Below are positions 302 to 21,144 of a stretch of 64,000 bases of DNA, piece by piece. Each line of letters opens with the position of its first letter. Position 1 is the first letter of the stretch. Both the position numbers and the translations under genes were made by a program. The stretch lies in NCBI GenBank assembly GCA_947499725.1, contig CANMPK010000001.1, positions 1,178,001 through 1,242,000 on the forward strand, written 5' to 3'. The notes beneath the pieces were generated by a model that saw only the letters and a list, made by a program, of their open reading frames with translations, did no database searches and was not told where the DNA came from. The DNA is from an uncultured Paracoccaceae bacterium (lineage in GTDB: Bacteria > Pseudomonadota > Alphaproteobacteria > Rhodobacterales > Rhodobacteraceae).

Positions 302-489
302 GTCTTTGCCTGCTCGCTTTCAATTCTTTTCAGGCGAAATTGCCTGTCTTTGCGCCCGTCTTACAAAGCAAAATGGACAAGAATAAGACGACGCCCCCAC
401 ATTTGAGACTAAGTGAAAAAAGATCTAAGATGCCACAAAAACACCCAGATCCCATCGTAGATCATCCGAAAGACTATCTGGAGCACTTT

Positions 490-4642: not shown

Positions 4643-4671
4643 ACAAAAAAAGGCGCCAATAAGGCGCCTTT
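4643..4671 (-). terminator. Rho-independent terminator after the wzz-like gene
   Basis: A perfect 9-bp stem (AAAGGCGCC at 4649-4657 paired with GGCGCCTTT at 4663-4671, 5-base loop). On the minus strand a run of T residues follows (the complement of the A tract at 4644-4651). It sits about 22 bp past the stop codon of the wzz-like gene. Confidence 0.85.
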
Positions 4672-4693
4672 GATAGAGGTGATTCTGTTGGGA

Positions 4694-5959
4694 TTACCGG
4701 CCCGTCACAAGCGCCACAATCACCAGTACAGCCAAGACAAAGACCGTGATTCCAACCACCCAAGTGAGCTTGCGCCACACCTTTTCATGCGCCACTTGCA
4801 CATTCGGAATAACGGCAACGGCACGTAGGCCCAGTTGGCGCTCTAGCTGGTTTTCCGTGCGAATAATCGGGTTGCGCAGTTCTAGGATTGCGACGAGCAA
4901 AATACCCAGGAAACCGGACAAAACACAGCCCATAAAGGCGATGCGTTTGCGGTTTGGCGCGATCGGTTGTTCAGGTGGAATGGCTGGCTCTAGAACGCGG
5001 AAACTCTCGCCTTGTTGGCTCGCTTGCAGCATGAGCCCCATCTCGGCCTCTGCCTGATTGCGCGTAATGACCTGATACTGATCTGTAAGCTTCTGTAGCT
5101 CGCGTTCCTGACGGCTGAGTTCACGTTCAACATCTGGCGCGCGGCGTTCCAATTCGAGGATCACGTTAATGCGCTCTGCCAACAAATCACGCTGCTGTTC
5201 CAACTGTTCAACGCGGCTGATGAAAATGTTGTTTCGCGCGCCGCGGTTGCCGGCATTCAATTCAAGCAGCTCACGTTCCAGCACTAGTTTCTCTTGCTCA
5301 AGCAATGCGAGTTGCTCGCGCTGAGCAGCCAAACCGCCGGTCAGGCTATTGAGATTATTTCGTTTAAAGTCAGCAAGTTCGCCTTCTAGCCCGTCGATCT
5401 CGATGCTCAGGCGTGCCTCTTCACTTTCAAAGAAGGCCAAGGTTTCTTCGGCCCGTTGAGAGCGCGATTGACGGCTTTCTTCCAGCACATTTGACACCAA
5501 AGTATTGGCCACGCGCGCGGCCAATTCAGGATCACCCAAACGGACCGTAATGCTGAGAGCAGTCGGCGTGATATCTGGGCGCCATGCCAAAGTTGGATCG
5601 GAAACCCGCGTCACCTGCGCTGACTCGCGCAGGGCATGGACCTTATCGCTTTCGGACATATCCGGAAGCTCTCCGAACAGGTTTTCTTGATTTACGATTG
5701 TCAGAAGATTGCCGCGAGACATCACGCGTTGTTCGATGATTTGCAACTGTTGCAGGGTTTGCGAATTGGGCGCGGCGCCTAAAGACTGCTGAACCTGCGG
5801 CTGTTCAATTTGAATCAGCGCCGTGGTTTCATATTCGCGCGGCAAGCTCAGTGCATAAAACAATGACGCAGCAATACCGATGGCCACGACAACTGCCAGC
5901 AAAACGATGTGACGTAGAACTGCGCTGAGGAGTTCATCAATTGTGGCAAGCCTGTTCAT
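4694..5959 (-). CDS. Wzz/GumC-like polysaccharide chain-length determinant (no kinase domain)
   Basis: 421 residues. Seen: an N-terminal membrane helix (about 15-38), a Wzz domain beginning REYETTALIQIEQP, a long heptad-rich coiled coil (about 165-295), a proline-rich segment (PAIPPEQPIAPNR), a second membrane helix (about 335-357), and a third hydrophobic helix at the very C-terminus. Family members are inner-membrane polysaccharide co-polymerases that set chain length. In PCP-2a proteins (ExoP, Wzc) a cytoplasmic tyrosine kinase follows the second helix. Here the link segment LGLRAVAVIPNV is kept, but the protein then ends in another membrane helix. Followed by a clear terminator. Confidence 0.88.
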   Translation of the reverse strand: MNRLATIDELLSAVLRHIVLLAVVVAIGIAASLFYALSLPREYETTALIQIEQPQVQQSLGAAPNSQTLQQLQIIEQRVMSRGNLLTIVNQENLFGELPDMSESDKVHALRESAQVTRVSDPTLAWRPDITPTALSITVRLGDPELAARVANTLVSNVLEESRQSRSQRAEETLAFFESEEARLSIEIDGLEGELADFKRNNLNSLTGGLAAQREQLALLEQEKLVLERELLELNAGNRGARNNIFISRVEQLEQQRDLLAERINVILELERRAPDVERELSRQERELQKLTDQYQVITRNQAEAEMGLMLQASQQGESFRVLEPAIPPEQPIAPNRKRIAFMGCVLSGFLGILLVAILELRNPIIRTENQLERQLGLRAVAVIPNVQVAHEKVWRKLTWVVGITVFVLAVLVIVALVTGR

Positions 5960-6044: not shown

Positions 6045-6770
6045 TCATCCGATGGCTGAATTTGGATATTCAGCATCATCTGAAAAACCTTCTTTCATAT
6101 GGCACATACTCAGGATTTGGTCACCAATCGAGGCGGACAGACCTTTGAACATTGTTCCTTTTGGCAGGTGAGCGACATCTTGCATCAGTCGCGCATCAAA
6201 GCGGCCTTGGTTGTCGAAGATCAAAGACAGCGCCTGAAAATCAAACATTTCATGGCTGATGGCATATTGGCATTTGTAGATCGCTTCTTTGGCTGAGAAA
6301 AAGCGACGCGCGACCAAGTCACGGGCGTTAAACGGCAATTGGCGCAGCCAAGCCAGTTCTTCTGGGCGGCAGATTTCAGCGAAGATTTCGGCCTCGATTG
6401 GTAGAGCTGGTTCGATATCTACACCAAGTGCGCGGAAACGGTCGCGGTCTGCGACAACGGCAACGCAGGCAGTTTTGTCATGGGTGATGCTGCCGACAAC
6501 GCTGCGTGGCCAGATTGGCGCGCGATCTTCGCCCATCGGGATCGCTGAGGGCGCGCGGCCGAGCGCAAGCAGCGCTTTGCGGGCTGCGGTACGGCCTGCT
6601 GCAAATTCACGCTGGCGCGCAGGTTGCGCGTTGGCGATGGCTTGCTCTTCCGTAGGCCAAAGCGGTTCTGGTTCGGCCAGTGGCGAGGACACAGCGACGG
6701 CAACGCCCATAGGCACCAAGGAGCGCGCGCCCTGTTCGAGCATGGAAAGACGACGGATTTGCAGGGTCAT
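6045..6770 (-). CDS. 4'-Phosphopantetheinyl transferase (EntD/Sfp superfamily)
   Basis: 241 residues. It would attach the 4'-phosphopantetheine arm of CoA to the conserved serine of carrier domains. Seen: GSITHD (residues 93-98), the magnesium motif GVDIE (116-120) and FSAKEAIYK (158-166), in the order and spacing of EntD-type enzymes. The start ATG overlaps the stop of the NRPS gene (ATGA) and has GGGAGA upstream inside that gene. This tight coupling makes it very likely that it activates the PCP of the NRPS and the ACP of the PKS encoded just upstream. It ends 85 bp before the wzz-like gene starts, so one transcript could carry both. Confidence 0.95.
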   Translation of the reverse strand: MTLQIRRLSMLEQGARSLVPMGVAVAVSSPLAEPEPLWPTEEQAIANAQPARQREFAAGRTAARKALLALGRAPSAIPMGEDRAPIWPRSVVGSITHDKTACVAVVADRDRFRALGVDIEPALPIEAEIFAEICRPEELAWLRQLPFNARDLVARRFFSAKEAIYKCQYAISHEMFDFQALSLIFDNQGRFDARLMQDVAHLPKGTMFKGLSASIGDQILSMCHMKEGFSDDAEYPNSAIG

Positions 6771-9700
6771 GATTGTATCTCCCGACGGCGTGCACGCAAG
6801 GCACGGCGTTTTAGCATGGCGTCTTGGCGCGGATGACCGGCTGACGCGATTGGTTGTGGTTGCTGCCCCGCAGCCGGCGGCACCGGCTGTTCTGTGGTAC
6901 GCGCAGGGGCTGATCCCCCAAGCGTTTCAATCCGCTCTGCCAGTGCACCCAGCGTTGGAAAGCGGAAAATGTCTGTGATGGAAAGGGTTTGGAAGCCCAA
7001 GCTATCACGCAATTCTCGGTGCGCCTGCACGGCCAAAAGGCTGTGGCCACCAAGATCAAAGAAGTTGTCGTTTGGCCCAACATTTGCGATGCCGAGGATA
7101 CGTTCCCACACTGCAGCAAGGCTCTGTTGGATGGCGGCTTGGCCCTTGGCGCTGGTTTGCGCGGATGCCACTGGCGCAATGGCTTGCGGCGCAGGTTTTG
7201 GCGCAGATGGTTTGGGCAGCGCTTTGCGATCGACCTTTTTGTTTGGTGTCAGCGGAAAGCTGTCTAGGCGCACGAAGTGGCGCGGCACCATGTAATCCGG
7301 CAGATGTTCTGACAGGTGCGCGCGCATCATTGCGTCGCTTTGATCGCCGCGCAGGTAAGCCACAAGACGCACATCACCTGGGTTGTCTTCGCGTGGAATA
7401 ACAACGGCTTGGTTGATGCCTTGCATCTCTTCAAGACGGCTTTCGATTTCGCCAAGTTCAATTCGATAGCCGCGGATTTTGACTTGATGATCGGCACGGC
7501 CAATGAAATCAAGGCCGCCGTCCAAACGCCCGCGCACCAGATCGCCGGTGCGATAAAGGCGGTCAGTTGTGTCAAACGGGCTTTTCACGAAACGATCTTG
7601 CGTAAGGTCATCGCGTTGCCAATAGCCACGCGTCACCCCTGCCCCGCCGATGTACAATTCACCTGCCACGCCAAGCGGAACGGGCTGCATCGCGTCATCC
7701 AGAACATAGAGACCCGTGTTGGCAATCGGTTGGCCCACATGCACGATACCATCATCCGCAGTTGCTTTGGCCGTGGAGGACCAGATCGTGGTTTCAGTGG
7801 GGCCGTACATATTGGTGATGGTTGCGTCTGTGATGGCGTTCAGCTCGCCGACCAGTTTGCCCGGCAGAGCCTCGCCGCCAATCATCAAATGATCGACTTG
7901 AGCAAGCGCAATGCTGGCTTCTGTATTCATGGTCAGCATACGCGCCATAGATGGCGTGCATTGCAGGTGGGTTACCTTGTGGCGCAGGACTTGGCCCGCG
8001 ATTGAGACATCACTGTCAGCCACACCGATCTCTTGGTTGGTTTCCTTGAGAACCTGCGCAAGGCGCGTGAGACCATCCAAAACAACAGGTGTTGGGATGC
8101 CGTAGTCAATCAGGCAGGCCACTTCGGCGACACCGATTTTCTTAAGCTCTTCAACGCGCTGCACACAATCGTTCACCGTGCCAAACAGACCAGAGTCTTC
8201 GAAATAGCGTTGGAAGGCGAAATCTAGGATGCCGTCCATTTCTTCATCTGTCAGCCCAGTCAGATCAAGCTCGAATGGGTTCTTCACCCCGTCTGGTTTT
8301 TTGAAGGCTGGGAAGGCCCAAGCGTATTGTTTGATCAGACCAGCGGCAGAGCGCAGGTAATTCTTCATCGGATCCCGCGCGGTTTCGCGGGCCTCTTCGC
8401 GGGTGTTGCCCACGAAGGTGTGCAGCATCAGAGTGACTTTAAACTTGGCCGGATCATACCCCGCTTCGCGCAAGGCCGCGTGGTAGATCGCGGTTTTTTC
8501 CTGAACCTCGTCAATGGTTTGACCCAGAAGGTGTGTGAGCACATTGGCGCCGTTGCGCCCTGCTTCTTTCCATGTTTCAGGGTTGCCTGCGGTGGTTACC
8601 CAGATCTCGGGCGCGTCAGACACAGGACGCGGCTGAGTCACAACCGGCATCATGGTGCCGTCTTGGCGCGGGAACTCAACCGGCTCGCCTTTCCACAGGG
8701 TACGCAGGTCTTTGATCTGCTCAAACATCGCGGTTTTATTGGCCGGTGGTGTGTTTTCTGGACGCAGCACAAAATCATCCGGCTGCCAGCCGCTGGCAAT
8801 GGCCAGACCAGCTTTGCCGTCTGTCAGATTGTCGATTACAGCCCATTCTTCGGCAATGCGGGCTGTATGGTGCAGCGGCGCAACGCAGCTGCCTGCACGC
8901 ACGCCGATGTTTTTCACGAAACCTGCCACGGCTGCGCCGGTGACCGATGGGTTCGGGTATGGGCCACCAAAGGCGTGGAAATGGCGTTCTGGGGTCCAGA
9001 CCGCGCAGAAGCCGTTGTCATCGGCAAATTGCGCGCCTTTGAGCAGCAGTTCATATTTGCCTTTGCCTGCGCCGTCATCATTGCCCCAATAATACAGGCT
9101 GAAATCGATGCCGGAGGCGCCAGAGCCCACAGGGCCATCAGAGATTTGCGTGGCGCTTTCATCGCCGGACAGCACCAGCTTGAAGCCGCGAGACAAGGTG
9201 TAGAAGAGCTCTAGCACCGAAATGTCAAAGGACAGGCTGGTGACCGCGAGCCAAGTGCCAGCGCCGTTTTGCGGCACAGCGCTGTCCATGCCCGCAAAGA
9301 AGTTTGCGACATTGCGATGTTCCACCATCACGCCTTTTGGGCGGCCAGTGGAGCCTGAGGTGAAGATCAGATAGGCAAGATCTGCGCCCTTTGCGCCTGC
9401 GTCCACATCGGACTTATCGGCCTGCGCAATGCGGGGATCGGCGTCGATGGTTAGGATAGAGGCCTTTGACTCTGGCAGGTCCGCTTGGATTGCAGATTGC
9501 GAAATGATGAACTTGGCGGCGCTGTCTTCGACATAGATCGCCAGACGATCTGCAGGAAAGCCCGGATCAAGCGGCAAGTAAGCTGCGCCTGCCTTCATTG
9601 CGCCGAGGCAAGCGATCACCAAATCCAGCGAACGTTTGCAATGGATGCCGACCACATCGCCTTTTTGCACCCCATCCGCTTGCAACACATGGGCCACTTG

Positions 9701-11422
9701 GTTGGCGCGTATGTTCAGCTCTGCGTAGCTTAGCGATTGGTGTTCGAACACCAATGCGGTTGCATCCGGTGTTTTGGCGGCTTGTGCTGCGATGGCTTCG
9801 TGGATGGAGGTCTCTAAATCCACATCAACTGCGGTTTGGTTCCATTCTGTCAGCAGTGATTTGCGTTCGGTTTCTGGTAGAATCTCCAGATCAGAGAGCG
9901 TGCCGCTTGGTTTGGCCAATTGATTTGCGATCAATTCCAAACGCGCGATCAGGCGCTCTGCGTGGTCGGTTGGCAAGCGTGTTTCATCAAAGGTCAACCT
10001 GTTGCTGGCAATGTCAAAAGTCATTGCTGCATCAGAGACTTGCCCGCCAAAGCTAACCGCTACATCAGGGGTTGAGATATCCGTAATCGCTGGATCGCGC
10101 AGCGCCAAATCAAGGGCGAAGGCGGGTTTACCTTTGGCCTTGGCAAGCTGAATTTCTGCTAGGTCAAGCAGCTGCGTGATTGGTGTATCGGCTTGCATTT
10201 CAAAGCTTAGCGGAACCCAGCTGGATTGGTAGGCTGCGGCTTCTGGTGCGTGATCGGCAGCAAGTGCCAGATCAACGGAATTTTCCGCCCCGCTGCTCTG
10301 GGCGAGCAGTGCCAATGCAGCGAGGCGTGCCTCTGCCGTTAAGGTTTCTGGCAGAGAAACCGGCAGAGTCTGAAACTGAGGTGATTGCGCTGCGGCTTTG
10401 ACCAGCGGCAGGTGTAGCGGCGCAAAATCGGCGAGTTTGCTGCGCCAGTGATCTTCGGCTTTTACTGTCGCATCTTGAGCTGCGCAGAGCGCTGTGCGGT
10501 CTGCCCCAAGGTTGCAGATCGTGTTGAGTTGCACTTGTGACAACGCTGCCTTTGCGCCGGATAGGTGACGCAAGCCGCCAAGTTGCACTGCGCCGTCGTT
10601 GGTTGCGACGGTCAGGCTGTCTTGGCTTTTGGCCAGAACGGTTCCGGCTGCGCCTTGATCACGGGTGGCTTTGGCGGATTGGACCGCCAGAACCATGCCA
10701 TCGACTGAGATCTTTGGCGTAACAAGTGGGTTCAGATAGTCACCATGATCCAGCGCGCGCACCATTTGCACGACGGCTTTGCTGGTGGTGTTTAAATCGA
10801 TGAGGCCAAACGCTTCTGGACGTTTGAAACGGCCATAATAGCTGCGCTTGCTGAGGTCTTGTGGCTGGCGTGGCAGTTCAGCCATGGCCAATGCTGCAAC
10901 CACATCAGCAAAGCTGTTCAATGCGGCTTCAAAGCATTTGGTGTTCAGGGTCAGCGCTGTATCATTTTCAGAGATATCAAAATTGCGCTGAACGAGGATA
11001 TCGCCTTCATCTACCGCGCCTTCGATCATGTGCCATGTGATGCCGTGCCGATTTGCCCCTTCAAGGCGGGCCCAGACTGGCGCGTTCAGGCCAGCATAGG
11101 CGGGCAGCGGTCCATCATGGAAATTCACAGCACCATGGCTGGCTTGATCCAGCATGTATTGCGGGATCATTTGCAGATTGGCGATGCTCAGCAGCCAATC
11201 ATATCCGGTATCAATATTGAAGTCTTTCAATGCGCCAGAGTGATGCAACACATCGATCTTTTGCGCTTTTGCCCAGTCGGCAATATCGGCATTCCGCGTG
11301 ACAATCATGGCAACTTCGTGACCACTGCTGCGCCAAATCTTGGCGCATTCGATCAGAAGCGACTCATTGCCAATGAGCGCTGCGCGCATGGGTGCGCCGC
11401 TTGGAATGCCTTCAAAACTCAT
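6767..11422 (-). CDS. NRPS: formyltransferase - adenylation with embedded monooxygenase - PCP
   Basis: 1551 residues. Domain order: formyltransferase (about 12-310; N100, H102 and D141 match the methionyl-tRNA formyltransferase triad); a remnant of a condensation domain (about 340-525) without HHxxxDG; an adenylation domain (about 535-757 and 1130-1405; core FTSGSTGRPKG, YGPTETT, YRTGD, NKKVDRKALP) interrupted between A4 and A5 by a flavin luciferase-like monooxygenase of the MupA/Atu3671 type (about 760-1125); and a PCP with Ser1461 (DLGGHSLL). There is no thioesterase; a basic tail (RRALRARRRE) may dock to the PKS. Specificity residues read by eye as D-I-L-Q-M-G-M-I-W-K, close to remembered glycine codes. 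In LgrA the same N-terminal domain formylates the loaded amino acid. The start has GGAGG six bases upstream and overlaps the GT2 gene by 4 bp. Inferred product: an N-formyl, possibly hydroxylated, glycyl thioester. Confidence 0.93.
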   Translation of the reverse strand: MSFEGIPSGAPMRAALIGNESLLIECAKIWRSSGHEVAMIVTRNADIADWAKAQKIDVLHHSGALKDFNIDTGYDWLLSIANLQMIPQYMLDQASHGAVNFHDGPLPAYAGLNAPVWARLEGANRHGITWHMIEGAVDEGDILVQRNFDISENDTALTLNTKCFEAALNSFADVVAALAMAELPRQPQDLSKRSYYGRFKRPEAFGLIDLNTTSKAVVQMVRALDHGDYLNPLVTPKISVDGMVLAVQSAKATRDQGAAGTVLAKSQDSLTVATNDGAVQLGGLRHLSGAKAALSQVQLNTICNLGADRTALCAAQDATVKAEDHWRSKLADFAPLHLPLVKAAAQSPQFQTLPVSLPETLTAEARLAALALLAQSSGAENSVDLALAADHAPEAAAYQSSWVPLSFEMQADTPITQLLDLAEIQLAKAKGKPAFALDLALRDPAITDISTPDVAVSFGGQVSDAAMTFDIASNRLTFDETRLPTDHAERLIARLELIANQLAKPSGTLSDLEILPETERKSLLTEWNQTAVDVDLETSIHEAIAAQAAKTPDATALVFEHQSLSYAELNIRANQVAHVLQADGVQKGDVVGIHCKRSLDLVIACLGAMKAGAAYLPLDPGFPADRLAIYVEDSAAKFIISQSAIQADLPESKASILTIDADPRIAQADKSDVDAGAKGADLAYLIFTSGSTGRPKGVMVEHRNVANFFAGMDSAVPQNGAGTWLAVTSLSFDISVLELFYTLSRGFKLVLSGDESATQISDGPVGSGASGIDFSLYYWGNDDGAGKGKYELLLKGAQFADDNGFCAVWTPERHFHAFGGPYPNPSVTGAAVAGFVKNIGVRAGSCVAPLHHTARIAEEWAVIDNLTDGKAGLAIASGWQPDDFVLRPENTPPANKTAMFEQIKDLRTLWKGEPVEFPRQDGTMMPVVTQPRPVSDAPEIWVTTAGNPETWKEAGRNGANVLTHLLGQTIDEVQEKTAIYHAALREAGYDPAKFKVTLMLHTFVGNTREEARETARDPMKNYLRSAAGLIKQYAWAFPAFKKPDGVKNPFELDLTGLTDEEMDGILDFAFQRYFEDSGLFGTVNDCVQRVEELKKIGVAEVACLIDYGIPTPVVLDGLTRLAQVLKETNQEIGVADSDVSIAGQVLRHKVTHLQCTPSMARMLTMNTEASIALAQVDHLMIGGEALPGKLVGELNAITDATITNMYGPTETTIWSSTAKATADDGIVHVGQPIANTGLYVLDDAMQPVPLGVAGELYIGGAGVTRGYWQRDDLTQDRFVKSPFDTTDRLYRTGDLVRGRLDGGLDFIGRADHQVKIRGYRIELGEIESRLEEMQGINQAVVIPREDNPGDVRLVAYLRGDQSDAMMRAHLSEHLPDYMVPRHFVRLDSFPLTPNKKVDRKALPKPSAPKPAPQAIAPVASAQTSAKGQAAIQQSLAAVWERILGIANVGPNDNFFDLGGHSLLAVQAHRELRDSLGFQTLSITDIFRFPTLGALAERIETLGGSAPARTTEQPVPPAAGQQPQPIASAGHPRQDAMLKRRALRARRREIQS

Positions 11423-12450
11423 CCAGATCCTCCATCCGCAGGCCTTATTGCCTTGGGAAAGGTAATGTTTCTTGTTTTCAATCCCGTCTTACGAAAGACG
11501 GCCTTTGCCCCATGTAATGCCAGATCAATGAGGAAATATTTGGGCTGGTCTAAGGATTTACCTTGCAACAGGCATCTTAGCCGCGCGAGAGCTCCGCCAA
11601 AGAGATGCACGAAGGAGGCAACGGAGGCGTAGACCACGCCGTGGTTTTGCACGAAGTAATGCAGGCGGGAATCCAGCCAGAATTGCGGGATACGCGTCCA
11701 TGTTTTCATGCCTGTAGACACTGACCCAATGTGCATGATCTCGCTTTCGCGCACGAAGTCGACGGTCCATCCGGCACGGCTGGCACGCAGGCAAAGATCG
11801 GTTTCTTCAAAGTATAGGAAAAAGCTCTCATCAAAGAGGCCGGTGTCTCTCAGTGTTTCGGCACGCATCATCAAAGACGCGCCAACAACCCAATCCACTT
11901 GCTGGGTTTTCTCCAAAAGCGGCAGAGAGACGATCGAATTCTTAAGCAAACGGCTCACAGGGCCAAAGCGCACAGCGCCTTCGAATTCGCCTAAAATGGT
12001 TGGGAAGCGAAAGGCAGACCGCTCGGCTTGACCGTCTTGATTCAAGATTTGACTACCGGCAAAACCACATTTTGGGTTGCGGTTCATATGGTCTAGCAAC
12101 GTGCTGATGGTTGTTTGATTGGGAAAAGCATCTGAGTTCAAGATGTAAACATAGTCTGGTGCGCCGCAGTCTAAAGCGTTGTCAAAGCCAAGACGAATGC
12201 CGTGGTTATTGCCTGCCCCAAAGCCACCATTGTGGCCTGATTGCACGACTTCCACCCGCGCTTTGTCCCAGCCTTTTTCTGCGACACCCGCCTGTAGCGT
12301 TTCGAAAGATCCGTCCTGACTGTCATTGTCGACGATCAAAATCTTACCCAAGAGACCTTGCATCGACTGCAAGGCCGCTTCGGTTGACTTCAAGGTCATC
12401 TCAGCCGTTCGATAGTTTAAAATAATGGTTAAAATGCAAGGGTTTGTCAT
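11419..12450 (-). CDS. GT2 glycosyltransferase between the PKS and NRPS genes
   Basis: 343 residues, GT-A fold, inverting. Seen: the N-terminal ILNYRTAEMTL strand-helix, IVDNDSQDGS, GGFGAGNNHG, the metal-binding ILNSDAF (DxD-like), and the acceptor-side FDESFFLYFEETDLCLRA motif typical of rhamnosyltransferase-like GT2 enzymes. Transfers a sugar from a nucleotide donor at the cytoplasmic face. It starts two bases after the PKS stop and has no convincing Shine-Dalgarno of its own, and its stop overlaps the NRPS start (ATGA). This coupling ties a sugar-transfer step directly to the assembly line. The sugar and the acceptor are unknown. Confidence 0.9.
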   Translation of the reverse strand: MTNPCILTIILNYRTAEMTLKSTEAALQSMQGLLGKILIVDNDSQDGSFETLQAGVAEKGWDKARVEVVQSGHNGGFGAGNNHGIRLGFDNALDCGAPDYVYILNSDAFPNQTTISTLLDHMNRNPKCGFAGSQILNQDGQAERSAFRFPTILGEFEGAVRFGPVSRLLKNSIVSLPLLEKTQQVDWVVGASLMMRAETLRDTGLFDESFFLYFEETDLCLRASRAGWTVDFVRESEIMHIGSVSTGMKTWTRIPQFWLDSRLHYFVQNHGVVYASVASFVHLFGGALARLRCLLQGKSLDQPKYFLIDLALHGAKAVFRKTGLKTRNITFPKAIRPADGGSG

Positions 12451-12452
12451 TG

Positions 12453-15400
12453 TTATTCAGCAGCTTTTCTAAATGGCACCACAACTTGCGCAGCGGTTTC
12501 AGCTTGTTCAATTTCTTTACGAATATGGGTCGCCAGGACACGGACGTTCGGTTCAAGGACCATGCTGTCGTGATCACCCGGCACTTCGGTAACGCTTAGG
12601 TTTGGCGCCCATTGTGTCCAATCGTTGTCGTGTAAGACATAGGTGCGCTCGCTGTTGACCCAACTGTCTGCGCCGACCTGCCATTTTCCGACCAATGGCG
12701 GACGATAGAGGGCCACCCGACCATTCCACGGGCGCATTTCGTATTTCGGCAGCGCGCGATAAAAGGCGGCTTCGATTTCGGCATTGTGGAACTGCGTGCC
12801 GTCGCCTTCCTGAGTGACTTCTGGCGCGCGGCGCTTGTTGATCTCCCAAAGGACACGGTTTTTCGCCCAGCGCCAAAGATAGCCAAAGCCGCCAGACTTG
12901 AGCTCTTGCAACTGGATCTTAAAACGATCTTGGCGGGTGAGCGCACGGCGCACAGGCAAAGGCGTATCAAGCATCACGACTAAGGCAACGTCTTCGCCAG
13001 CTTCTTCGAGCTGATGCGCAATTTCATAGGCTGTGATCCCGCCACCCGAGAAGCCGCCAATCAGGTACGGACCTTTCGGCTGTACTTGCTTCATTTCAGC
13101 AACGTAATCGCGTGCAGCCTCTGCGAGATCGTCATGCGGCGCGGCGTCGCCAAAGAGCCCACGCGCCTGCAAGCCATAGAACGGCCGGTCTGTTCCGATC
13201 AGCCTTGCCAGATGGCGCAGGTTCAACACGTTTCCATACATGCCGGCCACCAAGAAGAAGGGCGTTTTCTCGCTTTCGCCCGAGCGTTGCATCGGAACAA
13301 TGTGCGTAAATCGACGCTCTTTCTTCTTTTCTCGCGGGGCTGCCTCTTCGGTGGCACCGTCTTGTGGACCAATACGATCCGTGATCAGGGCCGCACATTG
13401 CTGGATGGTTGGGGCTTCGAATAAAATAGAGATTGGGAATTCAATTCGATAAGCCTTTTTCACCATGGCAAAGAGACGCACAGCAATCAGGGAGTGCCCT
13501 CCAAGATCAAAGAAGCTGTCTTGAACGCCAACTTGTTCGACCCCCAGAAGATCTTGCCAGAAGCCGGCGAGTGTCCGTTCAATCGCCGTGGATGGCGCGA
13601 GGAAATCTGTTTCAAGCTCTGGCCGTTCGAAGCCTTGCGTTTCTTTTTCATTCTGCACGCCCAGCGCATCAAGCTGCGCTGACAAGCCATTGATATCAAG
13701 TGATGAAACCGTAACTTGGGCCAAACCCATGCCAATCGCACGACGCAGTGCTTGCGCGCCTAGGGAGGCAGGAATACCTTGCGAGAGATTATATTGAAGC
13801 CGCTGTTCGTTCGGGGACAATGCCTGTTGGGTCTCAAGCGCATGATCACGCAGGATTTCATTCGCGTTCGGGCGCGGCAAGGCGTCTATTGCAAACCCTT
13901 GCTCGAGGCGGCGCAGAGTGAGCCGATCAACTTCGACACAAACGTTGCCTTCGGCATCTGTCAAAACGATATCGAAGCTTACAGAGCCTGTTTCTTCTCC
14001 GCCGCGTACCTCTTTGACCCAGCTTAGGGCTTTTGACGGTAAGGTCGCATAGTGCCGCAATGCGCCATAGCGCACAGGGACCCAAAGGTGTTCTCCCTGA
14101 TAGCCATCGATCAAAGACATCGCCCAACCTGTCCCCAAATCCAATAGACCTGGGTGCAAGTTGATTTCAGTCACAATGCTCTTCAAGTCAGCGGGCAAAG
14201 CCACTTCGGCAAGCCCTTCGCCCTGCCCTGTCGCCTTGCTGCGCAGCACGTTCCAGTGCGGGCCGAAGTTCAGATGGTTTTCTTGGTCACTGACCAAATA
14301 GTCGCCATCTGCGGCCTGCGTAACAGGCACACACCGTTCACGGATCGCTGGTAAATTTACATCCGTTGGCTGTGGAAGCGAGACGATTGCAATACGACCT
14401 TCTGCATGAACAACAAAGCCGTCGGCGTAATCCCCGAGCACTTTCACATCATAACCAAGATCGGTTGGGCAAAGTTGCAGGCGCAGCTTGCGGACCTGAT
14501 TGTCGGCAACATGGAAGGCGCGCAAGAACATCATATCTCGGATTTCGTAAGCGCGGTTTTCATCCAATGCGAGCATCGCCTCGGAGATCATCTGCAAGTA
14601 GCCTGTCGCAGGCAAAATCGCTTGGCCAGCTGAGGTGCGGTGCTGATCCAGCATCCAGCAGCTTTCATTGGTCAACGTGGCTTGGAAGATCACACTGCCA
14701 TCGGTATCGCTGCGCAGCTCTTGTAGAAAGGGCGCCTCGATTGGGCGGAAGTCAATTGAGACCCCTTCGCCTGTCCGTTCAGCCATACTGTCTGCTGCCA
14801 TGCCCGCATCTGTCCAGATGCCCCAATTCACGGCAACCACTCGGGTTTTGTCGTTTTTACGCGACTGTGCATAGGCATTCAGAAAGTTGTTTGCGGCGAC
14901 ATAGTCCACCTGCCCTGCGGGAGAGATGCTTGTTGATGTTGAAGAGAACAACACAAGCCAATCCAAATCCCCATCTGCAAAGACCTGATCCAACCCAAGG
15001 GTGCCATGCACTTTTGGCGCCAGAACTTCTTCGACATCTGCTGTGGATTTTCCGAGCATGGGCGCATCATTGATAACCCCTGCCCCGTGGATCACACCGT
15101 TGATCTGGCCGAACTGTTCCTTGGCTTTGGCCGTGGCCGCTTTCATTTCGCTGATGTTGTTCACATCTGCTTCCACGACCAGCAACTGCCCTGTGCGCGT
15201 CTCTAGATCTTGCACCGCTTGGATTTGGCGCACGGTTTTGTCGGTTGGGGGATTAAACTGTAAGACCTTCGGCCAATCAGCACGATCTGGCAAAGCGCTG
15301 CGCGATTGCAAAACCACATTGGCGCCTGCGTCCAGCATTTCTTTGGCCACGGTCAGGCCAATCCCACCGAACCCACCTGTGATCAGATAGGTTTCATTTG

Positions 15401-18400
15401 CCTTCCAAGTGATGGCCTTATCTTCGGGCAAGGCCTTGGCTTTGGTAATTTGCTCAAAGCGTTTCTCACCGCGATACGCCACTTGAGCGGAGATTGGATC
15501 TGCAAGCTGCTCTTCGATCAAACGCTCTGTCAGGTCGTCTGTGCGATCAACGTCAATTGACAAGCAACTGACCCAAGGAATTTCGCGCGGCATCACGCCA
15601 AGGGGGCCACGGATGGTGGCTTTCTCAGGATAGGCCAGCGTTTCGCTGCGCACGGCGGCAGCGCCGTTGGTCACGCAGGTGAGAAGCACTGGGCCCGGCA
15701 GGTTTTCATCAACGATGGCCTGCCCCAAGAACATCAGAGAATAAAAGCCCTGTTCGAGGTTGCGATGCAAAAAGCTGCTGCCTGGGCGATAGGTTTCATC
15801 CTCGGTCAAAAGCCACATATGGATGATACGATCCGGCGCGCGCCCACCTGCGATCAAATCGGCGAGCAACTGATCGTAGTCTTCGCGTCCGCGCTCAGGC
15901 GACAGCGTGTAGTCGCCATTAGGTAATTTAGCGAATGCATCGCTGGCGGTCACAAGCGTGACGTCAAAACCAGCCTCTTTCAGGCGATGGCCGAGGGTCG
16001 CGCCCTGCCCACCTTCATCTGCGAAAATCAGATAGCTGTGGACGTCGGCTTCGCTTAGTTCGCTTTGAACATCAACGTCGCATTCCGCGAGGCGTGGTTT
16101 CCAGACCTGTTGAAAGCCCCAATCTGTTGGATCTTCGATGCGCACCAGATCTTCTGCTGCTTCTTGCATCGGCTTACCCGGTTCAATGAAGTACCGGCTG
16201 CGTTGGAATTGGTAGCTGGGCAGCACAACCTTATTGCGGCGCGCCTCGCCCCAGATTTGTTCCCAATCAAAGGAAATGCCGCAGGCCCAAAGGCGACCCA
16301 ATAGGCTGACGAAATAGATATCGTCTTCAATCTCTTCTTCGGGATGGCGCAGGCTGGAAAGGGTTTTACCAGTCGCCACATTGCCATTCATGCGCGCAAG
16401 CGAGCTAAGCGCTTTGCCCGGGCCGACTTCTAGGAACACGCGCCCCGTGGTGTCGGCGCAGGTGGCGATACAATCGGCAAAACGCACAGTGCCGCGCAAG
16501 TGATCCACCCAATACTCTGGGTCAGTCGCTTGTTCTGGCGTCATCTCCACGCCGGTACGGTTTGAGATGATCGGCATCTGCGGCGCGTGCAAATCGATGC
16601 TGCGCAGATAGTCGCCAAAACGCGTTAAAATCGGTTCGAGCATGCGCGAATGCGCAGCGATATCAATCGCAATACGTTGGGCTTCGATCTCTTGCTCTGC
16701 CAGTGTGTTTTGCAAACGATCCAGCGCCTCAACTGGGCCAGAAACCGCAATGAGTTCAGGCGCGTTTTGTGCTGCAATATCAAGATCATCGCCAAGCAGC
16801 GGCTCTAGCTGTTTGCGCGACAAGGGAACGCTGAGCATGCCGCCTGCGGGTACTGTGTCAAACAGTTGCCCACGCAGCAGAACAAGCCCGATGCAATCCT
16901 CAAAGGACATCACGCCCGCCAAACAGGCTGCGGTGTTTTCGCCCATGGAATGGCCCACCAACACTTTGGGCTGCACGCCCCAGCTCAGCCAAAGCTGCGC
17001 CAGCGCGTATTCCACGATCATGATCAACGGCAATTGTAGGGATGGCTGCTTCAGGCGTTCATCTGCCTCTTCCAACGAAATCCCTTCAGCCAGCCAAAGC
17101 GCACGTACATCATGATCCACTTTGCTTTGCAGAATATCCAGACCGCGATCCATCCATTCTTGGAAGACCGGCTCGGTTTCATAGAGGTCTTGGCCCATCC
17201 GCGCATACTGCGCCCCGCCCCCTGGGAACATAAACACCAGTTCTGGGTTCTCGGTTTCAGCGGCATGATCAAAGACGCGACGTTGGAGTTTGGTTTCAAG
17301 CAACTCAATCGCTTCAGCCGCATCGCGCGCTACAAGCACGCGGCGCTTTTCAAAGGCGCGGCGACCTTCTTGCAAGGTGTAGGCCACATCCGCCAAAGAC
17401 TGATCGGGGTTGGCGCGGATATGCGCGGCCAAAGCGGCTGAGTTTGCGTCAAGCGCCTTAGTGCTGCGCGCTGAAATGGTCAGCAAATGGAAAGGCCATT
17501 CTGCTTCGTCAGAGGCTGGGCGCTCTGGAGCTTCTTCCAGAACCACATGGGCGTTTGTGCCACCAACACCCAGCGAGTTCACACCGGCGCGGCGTGGGCC
17601 TTTATGGCTCACCCAATCCGTCAGCGTGTCGTTTACCTTGAACGGGCTGGTGTCAAAATCAATCGCTGGGTTTGGCTTTTCAAACCCAAGGCTTGGGGCC
17701 ATCTTTTTGTGGTGCAGCGACAGGGCTGTTTTGATCAAGCTGGCTGCGCCTGCTGCCGTGTCCAAATGGCCAATGTTGGTTTTTACAGAGCCAATACGGC
17801 AAAACCCTGTGTCTTGTGTGGTTTCGCGGAAGGCTTCCGTGAGGGCTGCCACTTCGATCGGATCCCCCAGATAGGTACCGGTGCCGTGGCATTCAATGTA
17901 ATCGATGGTATCGGCTGGCGCATCGGCCATGGCTTGGGCATCGGCAATCGCGTAAGACTGCCCATCAACAGACGGCGCAAGATAACCAGCTTTGGCAGCA
18001 CCATCGTTGTTCACCGCAGAGCCGCGGATCACGCCCCAGATGTGATCGCCATCGGCAAGCGCCTCGCGCATGCGGCGCAGCACGACAACCCCTGCCCCGC
18101 TGCCGAACACGGTCCCTTGGGCGCGGTGGTCAAAAGCATGGCAATGGCCATCTGGCGAAAGGATTTCGCCATCTTCAAACACATAACCGCGACGATGCGG
18201 CATCTCGATCGTTACGCCGCCAGCCAGCGCCATATCGCATTCGCCGTTTAGCAAGGATTGGCACGCGTAATGCGCTGCCACCAATGATGTGGAACAGGCG
18301 GTCTGCACCGAAATGCTTGGTCCGTTCAGGTTCAGGATGTGGCTCAGGCGTGTAGACAGGAAATCTTTGTCATTGCCCGTATGGCGCAACAGGAACATGC

Positions 18401-18851
18401 CTGTGCTGTCTACAAGGTCTTTGTTGCTGCATAGGTTGAAGTAGAAATAGCTGCCCATACCGCAGCCGCCAAAAACGCCAATATCGCCGTTGAATTTCTC
18501 TGGCACATGGCCTGCGTTTTCCAAGGCTTCCCAGCTCACTTCAAGGAATTGGCGGTGTTGCGGATCCATGATTGCGGCTTCTTTGGGGCTCAGGCCAAAG
18601 AACTCTGCATCGAAATGGTCAAAATCTTCGAGAATCGCTGCGGCGCGCACATAGTTCTTGTGACGCAGTTTTGCGGGGCTTTCGCCCGCCTCTAAAAGCT
18701 CTTCTTCGGACAGTTCAGAAATGCACTCCACACCGTCGCGCAGATTGGCCCAATAGGCGTCAAGCGTCGCAGAGCCTGGCAAATGCGCAGCCATACCAAC
18801 GATTGCAATATCGTTTTCGTTCCAGTCGCTTTCGTTCAACGTCTTCGCCAT
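12453..18851 (-). CDS. Type I polyketide synthase KS-AT-KR-DH-ACP-TE
   Basis: About 2132 residues from the preferred ATG at 18851 (GAAGAG upstream). The frame is open to a GTG at 18899 with no ribosome site; residue numbers below count from that GTG. Ketosynthase 30-455 with Cys202 (TACSTS), His338 (ECHGTGT) and His378 (NIGHLD). Acyltransferase 553-850 with GHSMGE (Ser651). Ketoreductase about 1168-1365 with TGGFGGIG and a Ser/Tyr1333/Asn1337 set. Dehydratase about 1412-1680 with His1420 and Asp1597 (HPGLLD). ACP with Ser1803 (DLGGHSL). Thioesterase 1880-2140 with GFSGG (Ser1951) and PGDHDS. KR preceding DH is not the usual order. One module plus a TE means one C2 extension and release. With the NRPS upstream in the pathway, the KS would accept the formyl-aminoacyl unit (inference). 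Confidence 0.94.
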   Translation of the reverse strand: MAKTLNESDWNENDIAIVGMAAHLPGSATLDAYWANLRDGVECISELSEEELLEAGESPAKLRHKNYVRAAAILEDFDHFDAEFFGLSPKEAAIMDPQHRQFLEVSWEALENAGHVPEKFNGDIGVFGGCGMGSYFYFNLCSNKDLVDSTGMFLLRHTGNDKDFLSTRLSHILNLNGPSISVQTACSTSLVAAHYACQSLLNGECDMALAGGVTIEMPHRRGYVFEDGEILSPDGHCHAFDHRAQGTVFGSGAGVVVLRRMREALADGDHIWGVIRGSAVNNDGAAKAGYLAPSVDGQSYAIADAQAMADAPADTIDYIECHGTGTYLGDPIEVAALTEAFRETTQDTGFCRIGSVKTNIGHLDTAAGAASLIKTALSLHHKKMAPSLGFEKPNPAIDFDTSPFKVNDTLTDWVSHKGPRRAGVNSLGVGGTNAHVVLEEAPERPASDEAEWPFHLLTISARSTKALDANSAALAAHIRANPDQSLADVAYTLQEGRRAFEKRRVLVARDAAEAIELLETKLQRRVFDHAAETENPELVFMFPGGGAQYARMGQDLYETEPVFQEWMDRGLDILQSKVDHDVRALWLAEGISLEEADERLKQPSLQLPLIMIVEYALAQLWLSWGVQPKVLVGHSMGENTAACLAGVMSFEDCIGLVLLRGQLFDTVPAGGMLSVPLSRKQLEPLLGDDLDIAAQNAPELIAVSGPVEALDRLQNTLAEQEIEAQRIAIDIAAHSRMLEPILTRFGDYLRSIDLHAPQMPIISNRTGVEMTPEQATDPEYWVDHLRGTVRFADCIATCADTTGRVFLEVGPGKALSSLARMNGNVATGKTLSSLRHPEEEIEDDIYFVSLLGRLWACGISFDWEQIWGEARRNKVVLPSYQFQRSRYFIEPGKPMQEAAEDLVRIEDPTDWGFQQVWKPRLAECDVDVQSELSEADVHSYLIFADEGGQGATLGHRLKEAGFDVTLVTASDAFAKLPNGDYTLSPERGREDYDQLLADLIAGGRAPDRIIHMWLLTEDETYRPGSSFLHRNLEQGFYSLMFLGQAIVDENLPGPVLLTCVTNGAAAVRSETLAYPEKATIRGPLGVMPREIPWVSCLSIDVDRTDDLTERLIEEQLADPISAQVAYRGEKRFEQITKAKALPEDKAITWKANETYLITGGFGGIGLTVAKEMLDAGANVVLQSRSALPDRADWPKVLQFNPPTDKTVRQIQAVQDLETRTGQLLVVEADVNNISEMKAATAKAKEQFGQINGVIHGAGVINDAPMLGKSTADVEEVLAPKVHGTLGLDQVFADGDLDWLVLFSSTSTSISPAGQVDYVAANNFLNAYAQSRKNDKTRVVAVNWGIWTDAGMAADSMAERTGEGVSIDFRPIEAPFLQELRSDTDGSVIFQATLTNESCWMLDQHRTSAGQAILPATGYLQMISEAMLALDENRAYEIRDMMFLRAFHVADNQVRKLRLQLCPTDLGYDVKVLGDYADGFVVHAEGRIAIVSLPQPTDVNLPAIRERCVPVTQAADGDYLVSDQENHLNFGPHWNVLRSKATGQGEGLAEVALPADLKSIVTEINLHPGLLDLGTGWAMSLIDGYQGEHLWVPVRYGALRHYATLPSKALSWVKEVRGGEETGSVSFDIVLTDAEGNVCVEVDRLTLRRLEQGFAIDALPRPNANEILRDHALETQQALSPNEQRLQYNLSQGIPASLGAQALRRAIGMGLAQVTVSSLDINGLSAQLDALGVQNEKETQGFERPELETDFLAPSTAIERTLAGFWQDLLGVEQVGVQDSFFDLGGHSLIAVRLFAMVKKAYRIEFPISILFEAPTIQQCAALITDRIGPQDGATEEAAPREKKKERRFTHIVPMQRSGESEKTPFFLVAGMYGNVLNLRHLARLIGTDRPFYGLQARGLFGDAAPHDDLAEAARDYVAEMKQVQPKGPYLIGGFSGGGITAYEIAHQLEEAGEDVALVVMLDTPLPVRRALTRQDRFKIQLQELKSGGFGYLWRWAKNRVLWEINKRRAPEVTQEGDGTQFHNAEIEAAFYRALPKYEMRPWNGRVALYRPPLVGKWQVGADSWVNSERTYVLHDNDWTQWAPNLSVTEVPGDHDSMVLEPNVRVLATHIRKEIEQAETAAQVVVPFRKAAE

Positions 18852-18940
18852 AGTCTCTTCAATCGTGCTGCTCTCCCCTATGAAATAAGGGGAATTCACT
18901 TAGGACAGTAGCAATCAAACCTAACGTCAACTTGGTCGAA

Positions 18941-20335
18941 TTATGGCGACTTTAAGGCAAGCACCCCTTCGACCGCGGGCCAGTTTACATAGAGCGCAAG
19001 CCCCATCAAAATGGCGCCTAAAATCGTAAAGCTAACGTCATGCACGGGATCCCAAGTGCCTTGATCCTGTGCAAGCCAAATCACAAACGGATAGACCAAT
19101 ATCATTGCAACGCCTTGCCCAATCAATGCGCCGGGCAATCCAAACAACTGAACACCGATCAACAAACCGGCCAACATAAATACCGCACGTGCAAAGTTTA
19201 GCACGAAAAACTGTCGAGAGTTACCAGCTGCCAAAGCCGCTTGATCATAGGTTAATGCAATCACCTGCGGCACCTGAGAACAGGCGATCAGCACCAAGAT
19301 GCCTCCTGCCAGCATATACCGTTCATCATACATGATATCGATGAGGAAGCTGGACAATACGGCCATGAAGAACAAAGCGCCCATCAAGGCCAGAGACAAA
19401 ACAAACCGCATTTTCTGCAACTGTTTGTAGTTCTCCCGCGAGGCTTTTGGAGGGCAATCACGGTAGATCGGGATGAGAATACGCCGGTTCAAAAGCGCCC
19501 CAAGCAAGAGAGGAAAACCCGCCAAGAAGAAGCCGATATTGTAGATACCGAGCGTCTCAAGAGACAGGAATTTACCAAGTATAATCTTGTCGCCCTGCAC
19601 CAAAAAGAAGCCAACAACGGTGCTTAGGAAAATCCACTTTCCAAAGGTCACTAATTCTTGGGTCGCAGCCTTTTCCCAACGCAGACGATTGCCTTCGCCC
19701 GGAAGGTAAAGGCTCATCAAAACAAGATGCACCAGCGCGCCGAATATGCCGCTGATCACAAGGGCCCAAACGCTTTGCAATATATAGGCAGCAACGACAG
19801 CTACAATCAGGCTAACAACCTGAGAAATAAGATCAATTGCGGTTAACCGCCCAAAGGCCATGTGCCGGTGCGCTGTATCAAACCGGGTTGGGTTAAAGCC
19901 CATAATCGCAAGGGTCACCCCAACCGCAGGCAAAAGCTGAGCCAGTTCTGGGGCCTCAAAGAACTGCGCCGCTGGGATCGCAATGACGAAGGTCACCCCC
20001 CACAAGAGAAAGCCGCGGATAATTTGAATCGTCCATGCCGTATTCAGGAAATCGCGATCATCGCCGCGTTTACTTTGCATAATTGACGGGGTGATCCCGA
20101 CATCAGAAAAGTTGTTCAGCCCTTGCATGAACACATAGACAAGCGCCATCAAGCCAAAGGCTTCAGGGAACAAAAGCCGCGTTAGGATCAGGTTTGATGC
20201 AAGGCGCAGCACCTGCCCCCCGCCAAAGCTAAGCACAGTAAAGGCCGAGCCCCGAAAGGCGCGTGCCGCAATGCCTTGGCCGTTGCGTAGTGCTGTTAGT
20301 TTGCTGCCAACTCCGATCATCGCCCTCGTTTCCAT
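18941..20335 (-). CDS. Wzx-type lipid-linked oligosaccharide flippase
   Basis: 464 residues with 12-14 hydrophobic segments, of the polysaccharide-export branch of the MATE/MOP superfamily (FRGSAFTVLSFGGGQVLRLASNLILTRLLFPEAFG at the N-terminus is typical, as are the membrane pairs after it). These proteins flip undecaprenyl-linked repeat units to the periplasm. Two starts are possible: the ATG at 20335 (GGA upstream) or the ATG at 20320, which overlaps the GT2 stop as ATGA. The gene lies between that GT2 gene and the PKS gene, 89 bp from the preferred PKS start, and completes a Wzx/Wzy/Wzz set with the genes at 1.8-6 kb. Confidence 0.88.
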   Translation of the reverse strand: METRAMIGVGSKLTALRNGQGIAARAFRGSAFTVLSFGGGQVLRLASNLILTRLLFPEAFGLMALVYVFMQGLNNFSDVGITPSIMQSKRGDDRDFLNTAWTIQIIRGFLLWGVTFVIAIPAAQFFEAPELAQLLPAVGVTLAIMGFNPTRFDTAHRHMAFGRLTAIDLISQVVSLIVAVVAAYILQSVWALVISGIFGALVHLVLMSLYLPGEGNRLRWEKAATQELVTFGKWIFLSTVVGFFLVQGDKIILGKFLSLETLGIYNIGFFLAGFPLLLGALLNRRILIPIYRDCPPKASRENYKQLQKMRFVLSLALMGALFFMAVLSSFLIDIMYDERYMLAGGILVLIACSQVPQVIALTYDQAALAAGNSRQFFVLNFARAVFMLAGLLIGVQLFGLPGALIGQGVAMILVYPFVIWLAQDQGTWDPVHDVSFTILGAILMGLALYVNWPAVEGVLALKSP

Positions 20336-21144
20336 TCGTTTCCAGAGCTATCTTTAGAGAATTTCACGATCAAGCTCACCAAAGTATAGACGCAAAACCC
20401 AATGGGACGGGCGAAAGCAAGCTGAGCGATTTCAGCTGGTTTGGCGCGGGTCTTGTCTTCGTTTTTCATCAACTGAGGATAAAGCTCGGCCAATTGGGCG
20501 ACGCCTCTGTTTTGACGACGACGCACTTTAACCAAGTTGCGCAACCCTTCGGCCACCGGCCAAACATAGCCGGCTGGCACCGATAGGCGTTCTCGGGCTT
20601 TGAAATGCAACCGTACGAACATGTCGTCTGAAATGATCTCGGGGAATTTATCCCAACGCGCGCGCCCTGATTCATTCACGCCAAAAACCCCTGCACCGGG
20701 AACGGTTTTGGCCATGAAAGGCACCTTGCTCCAGAAACGTGCATAGGCGCGGCTGATGCGGCTGGCGGCGGCCATATGAAGCTGACCACTGGCCCAGGCA
20801 GGCTCGTCGCGATCTAGGGCGTTTTCAAGCTGATAGAGCAAACGTTCACTGACGCGCACATCCGCATCCAAGTAGATCCGCAAATACCCCAGCGCTGCGT
20901 TATCGCCGACATTCAAAGCGTGCAGTTTATTGCCGACCTCAAGCTCGATCACATCCAGTTGCCAGCCTTTTTCCTCGGCTAGAACCGTGTAACGTCTTGC
21001 AATATCAGCAGTGTTATCTGTGCAGCCGTTGGCGACTACAACAATCTGCAACTGCTCAATGCGCACCGAGGCAAAAATAGCCTCTAGGCAGGTGCTCATC
21101 CAAAGGGCTTCATTATTTGCCGGGATGATGACGCTGGTTTTCAT
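20317..21144 (-). CDS. GT2 glycosyltransferase
   Basis: 275 residues. Seen: SVIIPANNEALWMSTCLEAI, IVVVANGCTDNTADIARRY, a DxD-type metal site in YLDADVRV, and a later ISDDMFVRL stretch, then a short hydrophobic C-terminal segment (FCVYTLVSLIVKF) that may hold it to the membrane. This is the ExoA-like subgroup of GT2. It is the first gene of the minus-strand EPS/PKS/NRPS run and is divergent from a GT4 gene, with 120 bp between them. Donor and acceptor unknown; EPS assembly inferred from context. Confidence 0.88.
   Translation of the reverse strand: MKTSVIIPANNEALWMSTCLEAIFASVRIEQLQIVVVANGCTDNTADIARRYTVLAEEKGWQLDVIELEVGNKLHALNVGDNAALGYLRIYLDADVRVSERLLYQLENALDRDEPAWASGQLHMAAASRISRAYARFWSKVPFMAKTVPGAGVFGVNESGRARWDKFPEIISDDMFVRLHFKARERLSVPAGYVWPVAEGLRNLVKVRRRQNRGVAQLAELYPQLMKNEDKTRAKPAEIAQLAFARPIGFCVYTLVSLIVKFSKDSSGNEWKRGR

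Follow-up and report, generated by a model that had tools for sequence, protein, structure and literature searches.

Why should a locus for exopolysaccharide (EPS) synthesis carry a polyketide synthase (PKS) and a protein resembling a nonribosomal peptide synthetase (NRPS)? This question is raised by a stretch of 64,000 nucleotides (the window) from an uncultured Paracoccaceae bacterium of the order Rhodobacterales (GenBank assembly GCA_947499725.1; positions 1178001-1242000 of contig 1, CANMPK010000001.1; host genome 3.15 Mb). On its minus strand, open reading frames and family profiles revealed, in this order, a GT2 glycosyltransferase (GT2a), a flippase (Wzx), the PKS, a second GT2 glycosyltransferase (GT2b), the NRPS-like protein, a 4'-phosphopantetheinyl transferase (PPTase), a chain-length protein (Wzz), a priming sugar transferase and a Wzy-like protein. 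On the basis of current results, we consider it rather probable that the PKS and the NRPS-like protein form a two-module line dedicated to EPS, which would supply an acyl unit derived from N-formyl-(hydroxy)glycine to a Wzx/Wzy-type polymer. The evidence for the parts of this line, their active-site residues, their recurrence and their EPS context is strong.

Gene row and EPS context within Rhodobacterales

The original prediction, made from the letters of the window alone, described a hybrid NRPS-PKS line built into an EPS operon at positions 6045-21144. Its gene row, strand and protein families were as claimed, and the 2-bp gap between PKS and GT2b and the 4-bp overlaps of GT2b with the NRPS-like gene and of the latter with the PPTase gene were exact. 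Wzx and GT2a overlap by 19 bp, and the gene for Wzz lies just beyond that span. The flippase, chain-length protein and priming transferase by which we recognize a Wzx/Wzy-dependent locus were all found in the window. Recent arrival as foreign DNA was set aside because the GC content of the region (0.525-0.569) resembles that of the rest of the window (0.508-0.594).

Homologs of the NRPS-like protein (E <=1e-80) were identified in 160 of 390 genomes and 64 of 139 genera of the order. GT2b homologs (E <=1e-60) were present in 159 of the 390 genomes; when the two lists were compared by eye, all of these were positive for the NRPS-like protein, and genome G317 was the sole NRPS-positive genome lacking GT2b. 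For analysis of gene neighborhoods, 60 stretches of 20 kb were sampled, one per genus from 60 genera; those left out of the 64 genera with hits were G230, G235 and G317, which lay outside the best matches listed, and G381. The PKS, GT2b and NRPS-like genes were all found in each of the 60 loci, and 59 loci have them in this order and on the same strand. Locus L047 (genome G154) has GT2b about 5 kb away on the opposite strand, and L043 has an extra open frame between PKS and GT2b. From a stop codon to the nearest start codon of the next gene the distance was at most 15 bp in 56 of 59 loci for PKS/GT2b and in 54 of 59 for GT2b/NRPS.

We then counted matches to the EPS proteins of the window, namely homologs of Wzx, Wzz, Wzy, the priming transferase, GT2a, WecG and the protein encoded at 22471-25296. 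At least one such match was present in 57 of the 60 loci and at least two in 47, and none was found in 20 arbitrary 20-kb stretches taken from 20 of the same genomes. With the row kept in 59 of 60 loci and no EPS match in the control stretches, chance juxtaposition was set aside. Two of the three misses, L035 (G096) and L076 (G003), showed Wzx and Wzy matches once the stretch was widened (the control was kept at 20 kb), and L051 (G197), on a 28-kb contig, gave no EPS match even when widened. A second set comprised the best 80 of 575 relatives (590 stretches), whose genomes overlap with those of the 60-locus sample. Seventy of these 80 loci had room for the row, and 66 of the 70 passed a strict script test; the failures were due to a small overlap only (L182 and L210), a partial match (L173) or a GT2b located elsewhere (L202). 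EPS matches (at least one) were found in 65 of the 70. Thus, the neighborhood comparison across Rhodobacterales that the original prediction had suggested turned out in its favor, and homologs lacking EPS genes, which it had named as the finding that would speak against it, were not the usual case within the order. Its claim that the PKS, NRPS and EPS genes belong to one pathway is well supported by this context, also outside the order where the gene order is different (see below). The row was also observed on plasmids of Ruegeria, Paracoccus and Parasedimentitalea (L232, L236, L238, L242 and L243); these come from a search of a plasmid collection and give no rate.

Any role assigned to GT2b within the pathway is weakly founded. 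It showed a weak match to the rhamnosyltransferase family TIGR01556 (44.2 bits, against a cut-off of 200.55), and in Ruegeria conchae a plasmid has the row next to rfbA and rfbD, both of which would be compatible with rhamnose transfer. Rhamnose operons are also known from some biofilm plasmids of roseobacters. An rfbA match (71% identity) is located on contig 7 of the window's genome, and none was found inside the window. Deviating positions of GT2b were noted in G154, G170, G337 (genus g74) and L202. It no longer lies between the PKS and NRPS-like genes in G154, G170 and L202, and the match in G170 holds one stop codon; in G337, GT2b and the NRPS-like gene are on different contigs, the latter close to the end of its contig. 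A fused PKS-NRPS was considered for G154 and G170 because of open frames of 3693 and 3699 amino acids, but the sequence of G154 reads as two open frames 12 bp apart.

Domains of the line and its proposed product

The designation of the second megasynthase as an NRPS in the original prediction needs correction. An adenylation (A) domain and a peptidyl carrier domain (PCP) are present, but no complete condensation (C) domain could be found, and the protein has in addition a formyltransferase (FT) domain and a luciferase-like monooxygenase (MOX) inserted between motifs A4 and A5 (Table 1). The Pfam Condensation profile matches at its end only and below the cut-off; the preceding portion, which would hold the catalytic motif, thus seems to be absent. 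A thioesterase (TE) was not detected in this protein by the Pfam domain search. The MOX matches PuwE in the PDB (6ket, 323.6 bits).

Active sites were analyzed in an alignment of 61 proteins (the window and the 60 sampled loci), using those residues of the FT, PKS, PCP and TE domains that we take to be catalytic in their families. The N/H/D of the FT domain and the serine of the PCP were kept in 61 of 61 NRPS-like proteins. The same was true in the PKS for the ketosynthase (KS; C-H-H), acyltransferase (AT; S/H), ketoreductase (KR; S-Y-N), dehydratase (DH; H/D), acyl carrier protein (ACP; S) and TE (S-D-H) residues. The specificity code of the window reads DILQMGMIW; the pattern DILQxGM[IV]W was present in all 61 proteins, and a tenth position, K, was conserved at 95% or more (nine positions are quoted here). 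Four glycine A domains with a MOX all have the code DILQLGMIWK (PMC12283262; this and the following papers are cited from parts of their text). This published code is matched at all nine positions in 13 of the 61 proteins (DILQLGMIW); the window, with eight of nine positions matched, is one substitution away. An oxygenase inserted between A4 and A5, of the myxothiazol/melithiazol type, is said to hydroxylate the glycyl alpha carbon (PMC10204066). We predict, with moderate confidence, that the NRPS-like protein loads glycine and hydroxylates its alpha carbon. FT and A-PCP lie on one open frame in all 61 proteins, a fusion that we counted in favor of glycine formylation. It appears that the protein is a glycine-loading, formylating and oxidizing module and not an elongating NRPS, as predicted from its domains. 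A peptide product was set aside because the protein lacks a complete C domain. Oxazole formation as in conglobatin was also set aside; it would call for a cyclodehydratase gene, for which no search was made. On plasmid pCP157_02 of Paracoccus marcusii CP157 (L238, 13742-18333), the annotation gives the FT a gene of its own, which overlaps that for the remainder of the NRPS-like protein; in Paracoccus sp. Arc7-R13 (L236) it is part of one NRPS-like gene, so the split in L238 may be real or a sequencing error.

A possible route may be proposed in which each catalytic step is assigned from family membership. The PPTase would arm both carriers. The NRPS-like protein would adenylate glycine and load it onto the PCP, where the FT domain would N-formylate it and the inserted flavin monooxygenase would hydroxylate its alpha carbon. 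The KS of the PKS would accept this starter and add one malonyl-type C2 unit, followed by reduction by KR and dehydration by DH. The formal product would be a 4-formamido-(4-hydroxy)but-2-enoyl unit, possibly longer if the PKS iterates. The TE would release this acyl unit by passing it to a sugar of the repeat unit while the latter is lipid-linked and not yet flipped by Wzx, and GT2b would be among the glycosyltransferases that build the repeat unit. Finally, Wzx, Wzy and Wzz would flip, polymerize and size the decorated polymer, which the SGNH/glycosidase-type neighbor encoded at 22471-25296 may process. From sequence we infer an acyl/amide decoration of the EPS, one of the two outcomes that the original prediction had offered (the other being a glycosylated small molecule exported by the EPS route), together with the order from NRPS to PKS and the attachment to EPS; the identity of the product and its attachment site are weaker suggestions. 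The direction from NRPS to PKS is supported by G669, G727, G1036, G317 and Aliiroseovarius sp. M344, in which the NRPS-like gene is located 5' of the PKS gene on one strand.

A more far-reaching version, which we regard as rather unlikely, is that in many Rhodobacterales and some Hyphomicrobiales a bespoke NRPS-PKS line uses glycine and malonate to furnish the EPS repeat unit with a reactive group of the N-formyl-hemiaminal, butenolide or hydroxamate-like kind. If true, such a group would give the polymer cross-linking, metal-binding or adhesion chemistry; we know of no bacterial polysaccharide substituent with such chemistry. The orphan cluster of NRPS-like and type I PKS genes that is widespread in roseobacters would then serve to tailor a polysaccharide and would no longer count as a cluster for secondary metabolites.

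Loci outside the order and alternative explanations

Outside the order, six EPS-type loci were examined: plasmids of Aminobacter niigataensis, Shinella zoogloeoides, Rhizobium grahamii and Neorhizobium sp. SOG26 (Hyphomicrobiales; four of eight such records among the matches listed), and G999 and G897 from other families of the class. In all six, the PKS and NRPS-like genes are divergent and no GT2b lies between them. The original prediction had regarded the GT2 gene locked between the megasynthases as its strongest sign of a single pathway; this holds for loci of the window-type order, but not for these six. Wzx matches were found in all six loci, matches to WecG or the priming transferase in five, and a PPTase match follows in five. 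GT2b matches (34-40% identity) were present elsewhere in the stretch in two of the six (L234 and L237), the stretches ending at about 40 kb. Wzx adjoins the PKS in the window, L234, L235, L237 and G999, and the annotations of the Aminobacter and Shinella loci include a polysaccharide biosynthesis/export protein. The simplest story would be that the EPS link survived while the gene order changed. In more distant relatives (about 42-45% identity), the line has the NRPS first and the PKS second, and no homologs of the window EPS proteins lie nearby; G1025 is a multi-modular NRPS locus. As G897 (EPS type) and G669 (non-EPS) belong to one genus, the two kinds appear to represent separate lineages of the gene. 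The core NRPS-PKS line is probably older than its link to EPS.

It should be noted that several observations weigh against an EPS-dedicated line or against parts of the proposed route. No EPS protein of the window was matched near the lines of G669, G727 and Aliiroseovarius sp. M344 (a member of the order), near that of G1036, which resembles these but has a larger PKS, or near the divergent genes of G1057. In G317, a longer line has the NRPS-like gene and then the PKS gene on one strand, with additional NRPS/PKS stretches, and neither GT2b nor any window EPS protein was matched within 40 kb; low-scoring relatives, including this pattern-breaking genome, are omitted from the 60-locus sample. 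A PPTase match was absent from 8 of the 60 loci. The PKS gene precedes the NRPS-like gene in the window, contrary to the proposed direction, and the TE of the PKS could merely hydrolyze its product. Module 2 of LgrA, which we take to be a glycine module, lacks the DILQ code; the glycine assignment is therefore unsupported by the LgrA comparison and rests on the published code. The best PDB matches of the FT domain were ArnA and other sugar N-formyltransferases, and LgrA was weaker. In addition, distance correlations (0.86 for PKS-NRPS, 0.72 for PKS-GT2b and 0.85 for PKS-Wzz) did not single out GT2b. They were rejected as proof of its membership, as every gene pair gave a P value of 0.001 to 0.005 (floor 0.001), and shared ancestry alone could yield such correlations.

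Among the alternatives, the best surviving one, which we still consider unlikely, is that a small diffusible metabolite is the product of the line, which would share only locus and regulation with the EPS genes. An example would be a formamido-butenolide arising by lactonization of 4-formamido-4-hydroxybutenoate, or its glycosylated form. Such a metabolite would be consistent with the TE domain of the PKS, with the lines of G669, G727, G1036, G317 and M344 that have no window EPS proteins nearby, and with surveys that, in the parts cited here, class such clusters as orphan secondary-metabolite clusters. On the other hand, it would hardly be expected from the co-occurrence of GT2b in 159 of the 160 NRPS-positive genomes, or from the EPS context seen inside and outside the order despite different gene orders.

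It is less probable still that the acyl product serves as a terminal or lipid anchor of the polymer and not as a decoration of the repeat unit. PKSs of the RkpA/WcbR type have an anchor role in capsule loci. The type I PKS genes wcbR and rkpA are found in clusters for capsular polysaccharide synthesis and export (PMC3908369), which favors an anchor; however, one module primed by glycine would yield a short polar chain and not a lipid, and the locus already has an undecaprenyl-phosphate priming transferase. Formylation by the FT domain of an amino sugar of the EPS, in place of PCP-bound glycine, appears quite improbable. Both the PDB matches mentioned above and the separate FT gene annotated in Paracoccus marcusii CP157 would agree with it, whereas the FT with its N/H/D residues shares the open frame with A-PCP in all 61 proteins, and G669 and G727 keep the FT fusion in the absence of EPS matches nearby. 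Hadacidin is an example of N-formyl-N-hydroxyglycyl hydroxamate chemistry. A similar hydroxylation of nitrogen by the MOX, by which the EPS would gain a metal-binding group, has a fitting set of parts (formyl, oxygenase and glycine), but we give it very little credence in view of the described A4/A5-inserted oxygenases, which act on the alpha carbon of glycine (PMC10204066).

Known systems and neighboring features

The EPS-dedicated two-module line, which we prefer among these explanations, combines features of several known systems. Its A domain shares with those of myxothiazol and melithiazol the MOX between A4 and A5. In the latter pathways, the oxidized residue is cleaved to a terminal amide and a following TE hydrolyzes the thioester (PMC10204066); in contrast with the chain-ending module of myxothiazol, the NRPS-like protein of the window has an FT and lacks both a complete C domain and a TE. 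An FT with A-PCP that starts a line is also known from LgrA (linear gramicidin) and CongA (conglobatin), the latter being predicted to load glycine and to feed a PKS (PMC4504003, whose main text does not contain the words monooxygenase and luciferase). Unlike these two, the window has a C-domain remnant between FT and A, a single PKS module with a TE, and an EPS locus. RkpA and WcbR likewise represent type I PKSs among polysaccharide genes, a likeness of gene context, but no NRPS-like partner is mentioned for them in the part of PMC3908369 cited here, whereas the window has one. Compared with other Wzx/Wzy-dependent EPS loci, with which it shares glycosyltransferases, a priming transferase, a flippase and a chain-length protein, and perhaps a polymerase (its Wzy-like protein matches Wzy_C below the cut-off), the window adds an acyl-building line. 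Thus, a PKS in a polysaccharide locus is known, and the new element would be its predicted glycine-loading, formylating and oxidizing partner, which we did not find described.

Previously, hybrids of NRPS-like and type I PKS (T1PKS) genes were reported to be commoner than any other new cluster type, occurring in 18 species of 37 genomes (PMC10584327); these clusters need not all be of the window type. For Roseibaca domitiana that paper gives an NRPS gene of 4,527 nt and a T1PKS gene of 6,333 nt, separated by 992 nt with a single locus tag, a spacing that fits PKS-GT2b-NRPS. None of the terms exopolysaccharide, glycosyltransferase, luciferase and formyl occurs in its main text. A hybrid HSR/NRPS/PKS cluster was reported in Paracoccus marcusii CP157 (PMC8273931, with none of the terms polysaccharide, glycosyltransferase and luciferase in the main text), and we found that the pCP157_02 record of this strain carries the same row as the window. 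No paper linking this NRPS-PKS line to EPS was found in a search, by titles and abstracts, of the open-access part of the literature, and an earlier description may exist. If the line is indeed dedicated to EPS, a cluster counted in genome surveys as an orphan pathway of the antibiotic type would belong to the synthesis of a surface polymer. Such a role would help explain its wide conservation (NRPS-like gene in about two in five of the sampled genomes of the order), and the EPS would bear a new kind of substituent relevant to attachment and biofilm life.

Table 1. Genes and protein domains of the EPS locus, by position in the window
Feature	Position	Strand	Support
WecG/TagA/CpsF glycosyltransferase	340..1251	+	Glyco_tran_WecG 145.4 bits
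Wzy-like polymerase/ligase	1783..3270	-	Wzy_C 25 bits, below cut-off 31.7; matches in 29/60 loci
Undecaprenyl-phosphate sugar-phosphate transferase (priming)	3471..4133	-	Bac_transf 195.2 bits
Wzz-type chain-length protein	4694..5959	-	Wzz 35.7 bits
4'-Phosphopantetheinyl transferase	6045..6770	-	4PPT_N 89.1 bits, ACPS 58 bits; matches in 52/60 loci
NRPS-like protein, 1551 aa, FT - C-domain remnant - A(MOX) - PCP	6767..11422	-	Pfam/TIGRFAM domains
PCP	6929..7123	-	PP-binding 49.9 bits
A domain, C-terminal part (A5-A10)	7217..7999	-	Pfam; specificity code read from motifs
MOX, MupA/Atu3671-type luciferase-like monooxygenase, between A4 and A5	8051..9103	-	TIGR04020 461.4 bits, cut-off 244.45
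A domain, N-terminal part (A1-A4)	9158..9805	-	AMP-binding
C-terminal remnant of C domain	9833..10459	-	Condensation profile 391-456 of 456, 18.6 bits, gathering score 30.6
FT domain, residues 1-300	10523..11422	-	Formyl_trans_N 56.4 bits
GT2b, middle glycosyltransferase, 343 aa	11419..12450	-	Glyco_tranf_2_3 39.9 bits
Monomodular type I PKS, 2148 aa, KS-AT-KR-DH-ACP-TE	12453..18899	-	Pfam domains
PKS ACP (residues 1776-1839) and TE (1893-2125)	12525..13574	-	Pfam
PKS KR (residues 1170-1364) then DH (1391-1667)	13899..15392	-	Pfam
PKS AT, residues 555-827	16419..17237	-	Acyl_transf_1 150.1 bits; GHSMGE and IAAHS motifs
PKS KS, residues ~29-455	17535..18815	-	Pfam; motifs
Wzx-type flippase, 464 aa	18941..20335	-	Polysacc_synt_3 174.6 bits; matches in 31/60 20-kb loci
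GT2a, GT2 glycosyltransferase, 275 aa	20317..21144	-	Pfam Glycos_transf_2 52.5 bits; matches in 41/60 sampled loci
GT4 glycosyltransferase	21265..22485	+	Glycos_transf_1 131.1 bits
Secreted-looking SGNH-like + glycosidase-like protein with RTX repeats	22471..25296	-	Motifs by eye; Pfam RTX repeats only

The protein encoded at 22471-25296 has a signal-like start and, as judged by eye, GNSL, NE and YEGG motifs; neither its SGNH nor its glycosidase part was supported by Pfam. Matches to it were found in 17 of the 60 loci, with a 4-bp overlap with the preceding gene in 9 of these. By eye it resembles a secreted esterase of the SGNH type joined to a glycosidase-like part, and as a candidate EPS-processing enzyme it might trim the acyl group or transfer it. 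A relative of this protein in L075 is adjoined by a small SGNH-like protein (4314-5294).

The colinear NRPS-like/NRPS-PKS genes on the plasmid of Aliiroseovarius sp. M344 (L239, 14383-33741) lie near VPLPA-CTERM and exosortase XrtD genes. The Wzz of the window also gave a match to an exosortase-system protein, the chain-length determinant of the XrtA system (TIGR03007), below the cut-off. Further along the window, a gene for a Hint_2 domain protein (25519-26496, plus strand) separates the EPS locus from that of an ABC transporter permease. Ordinary neighbors include genes for a urea/branched-chain-type ABC transporter followed by acetate--CoA ligase (42537-49794, plus strand), and CTP synthase (57059-58702).

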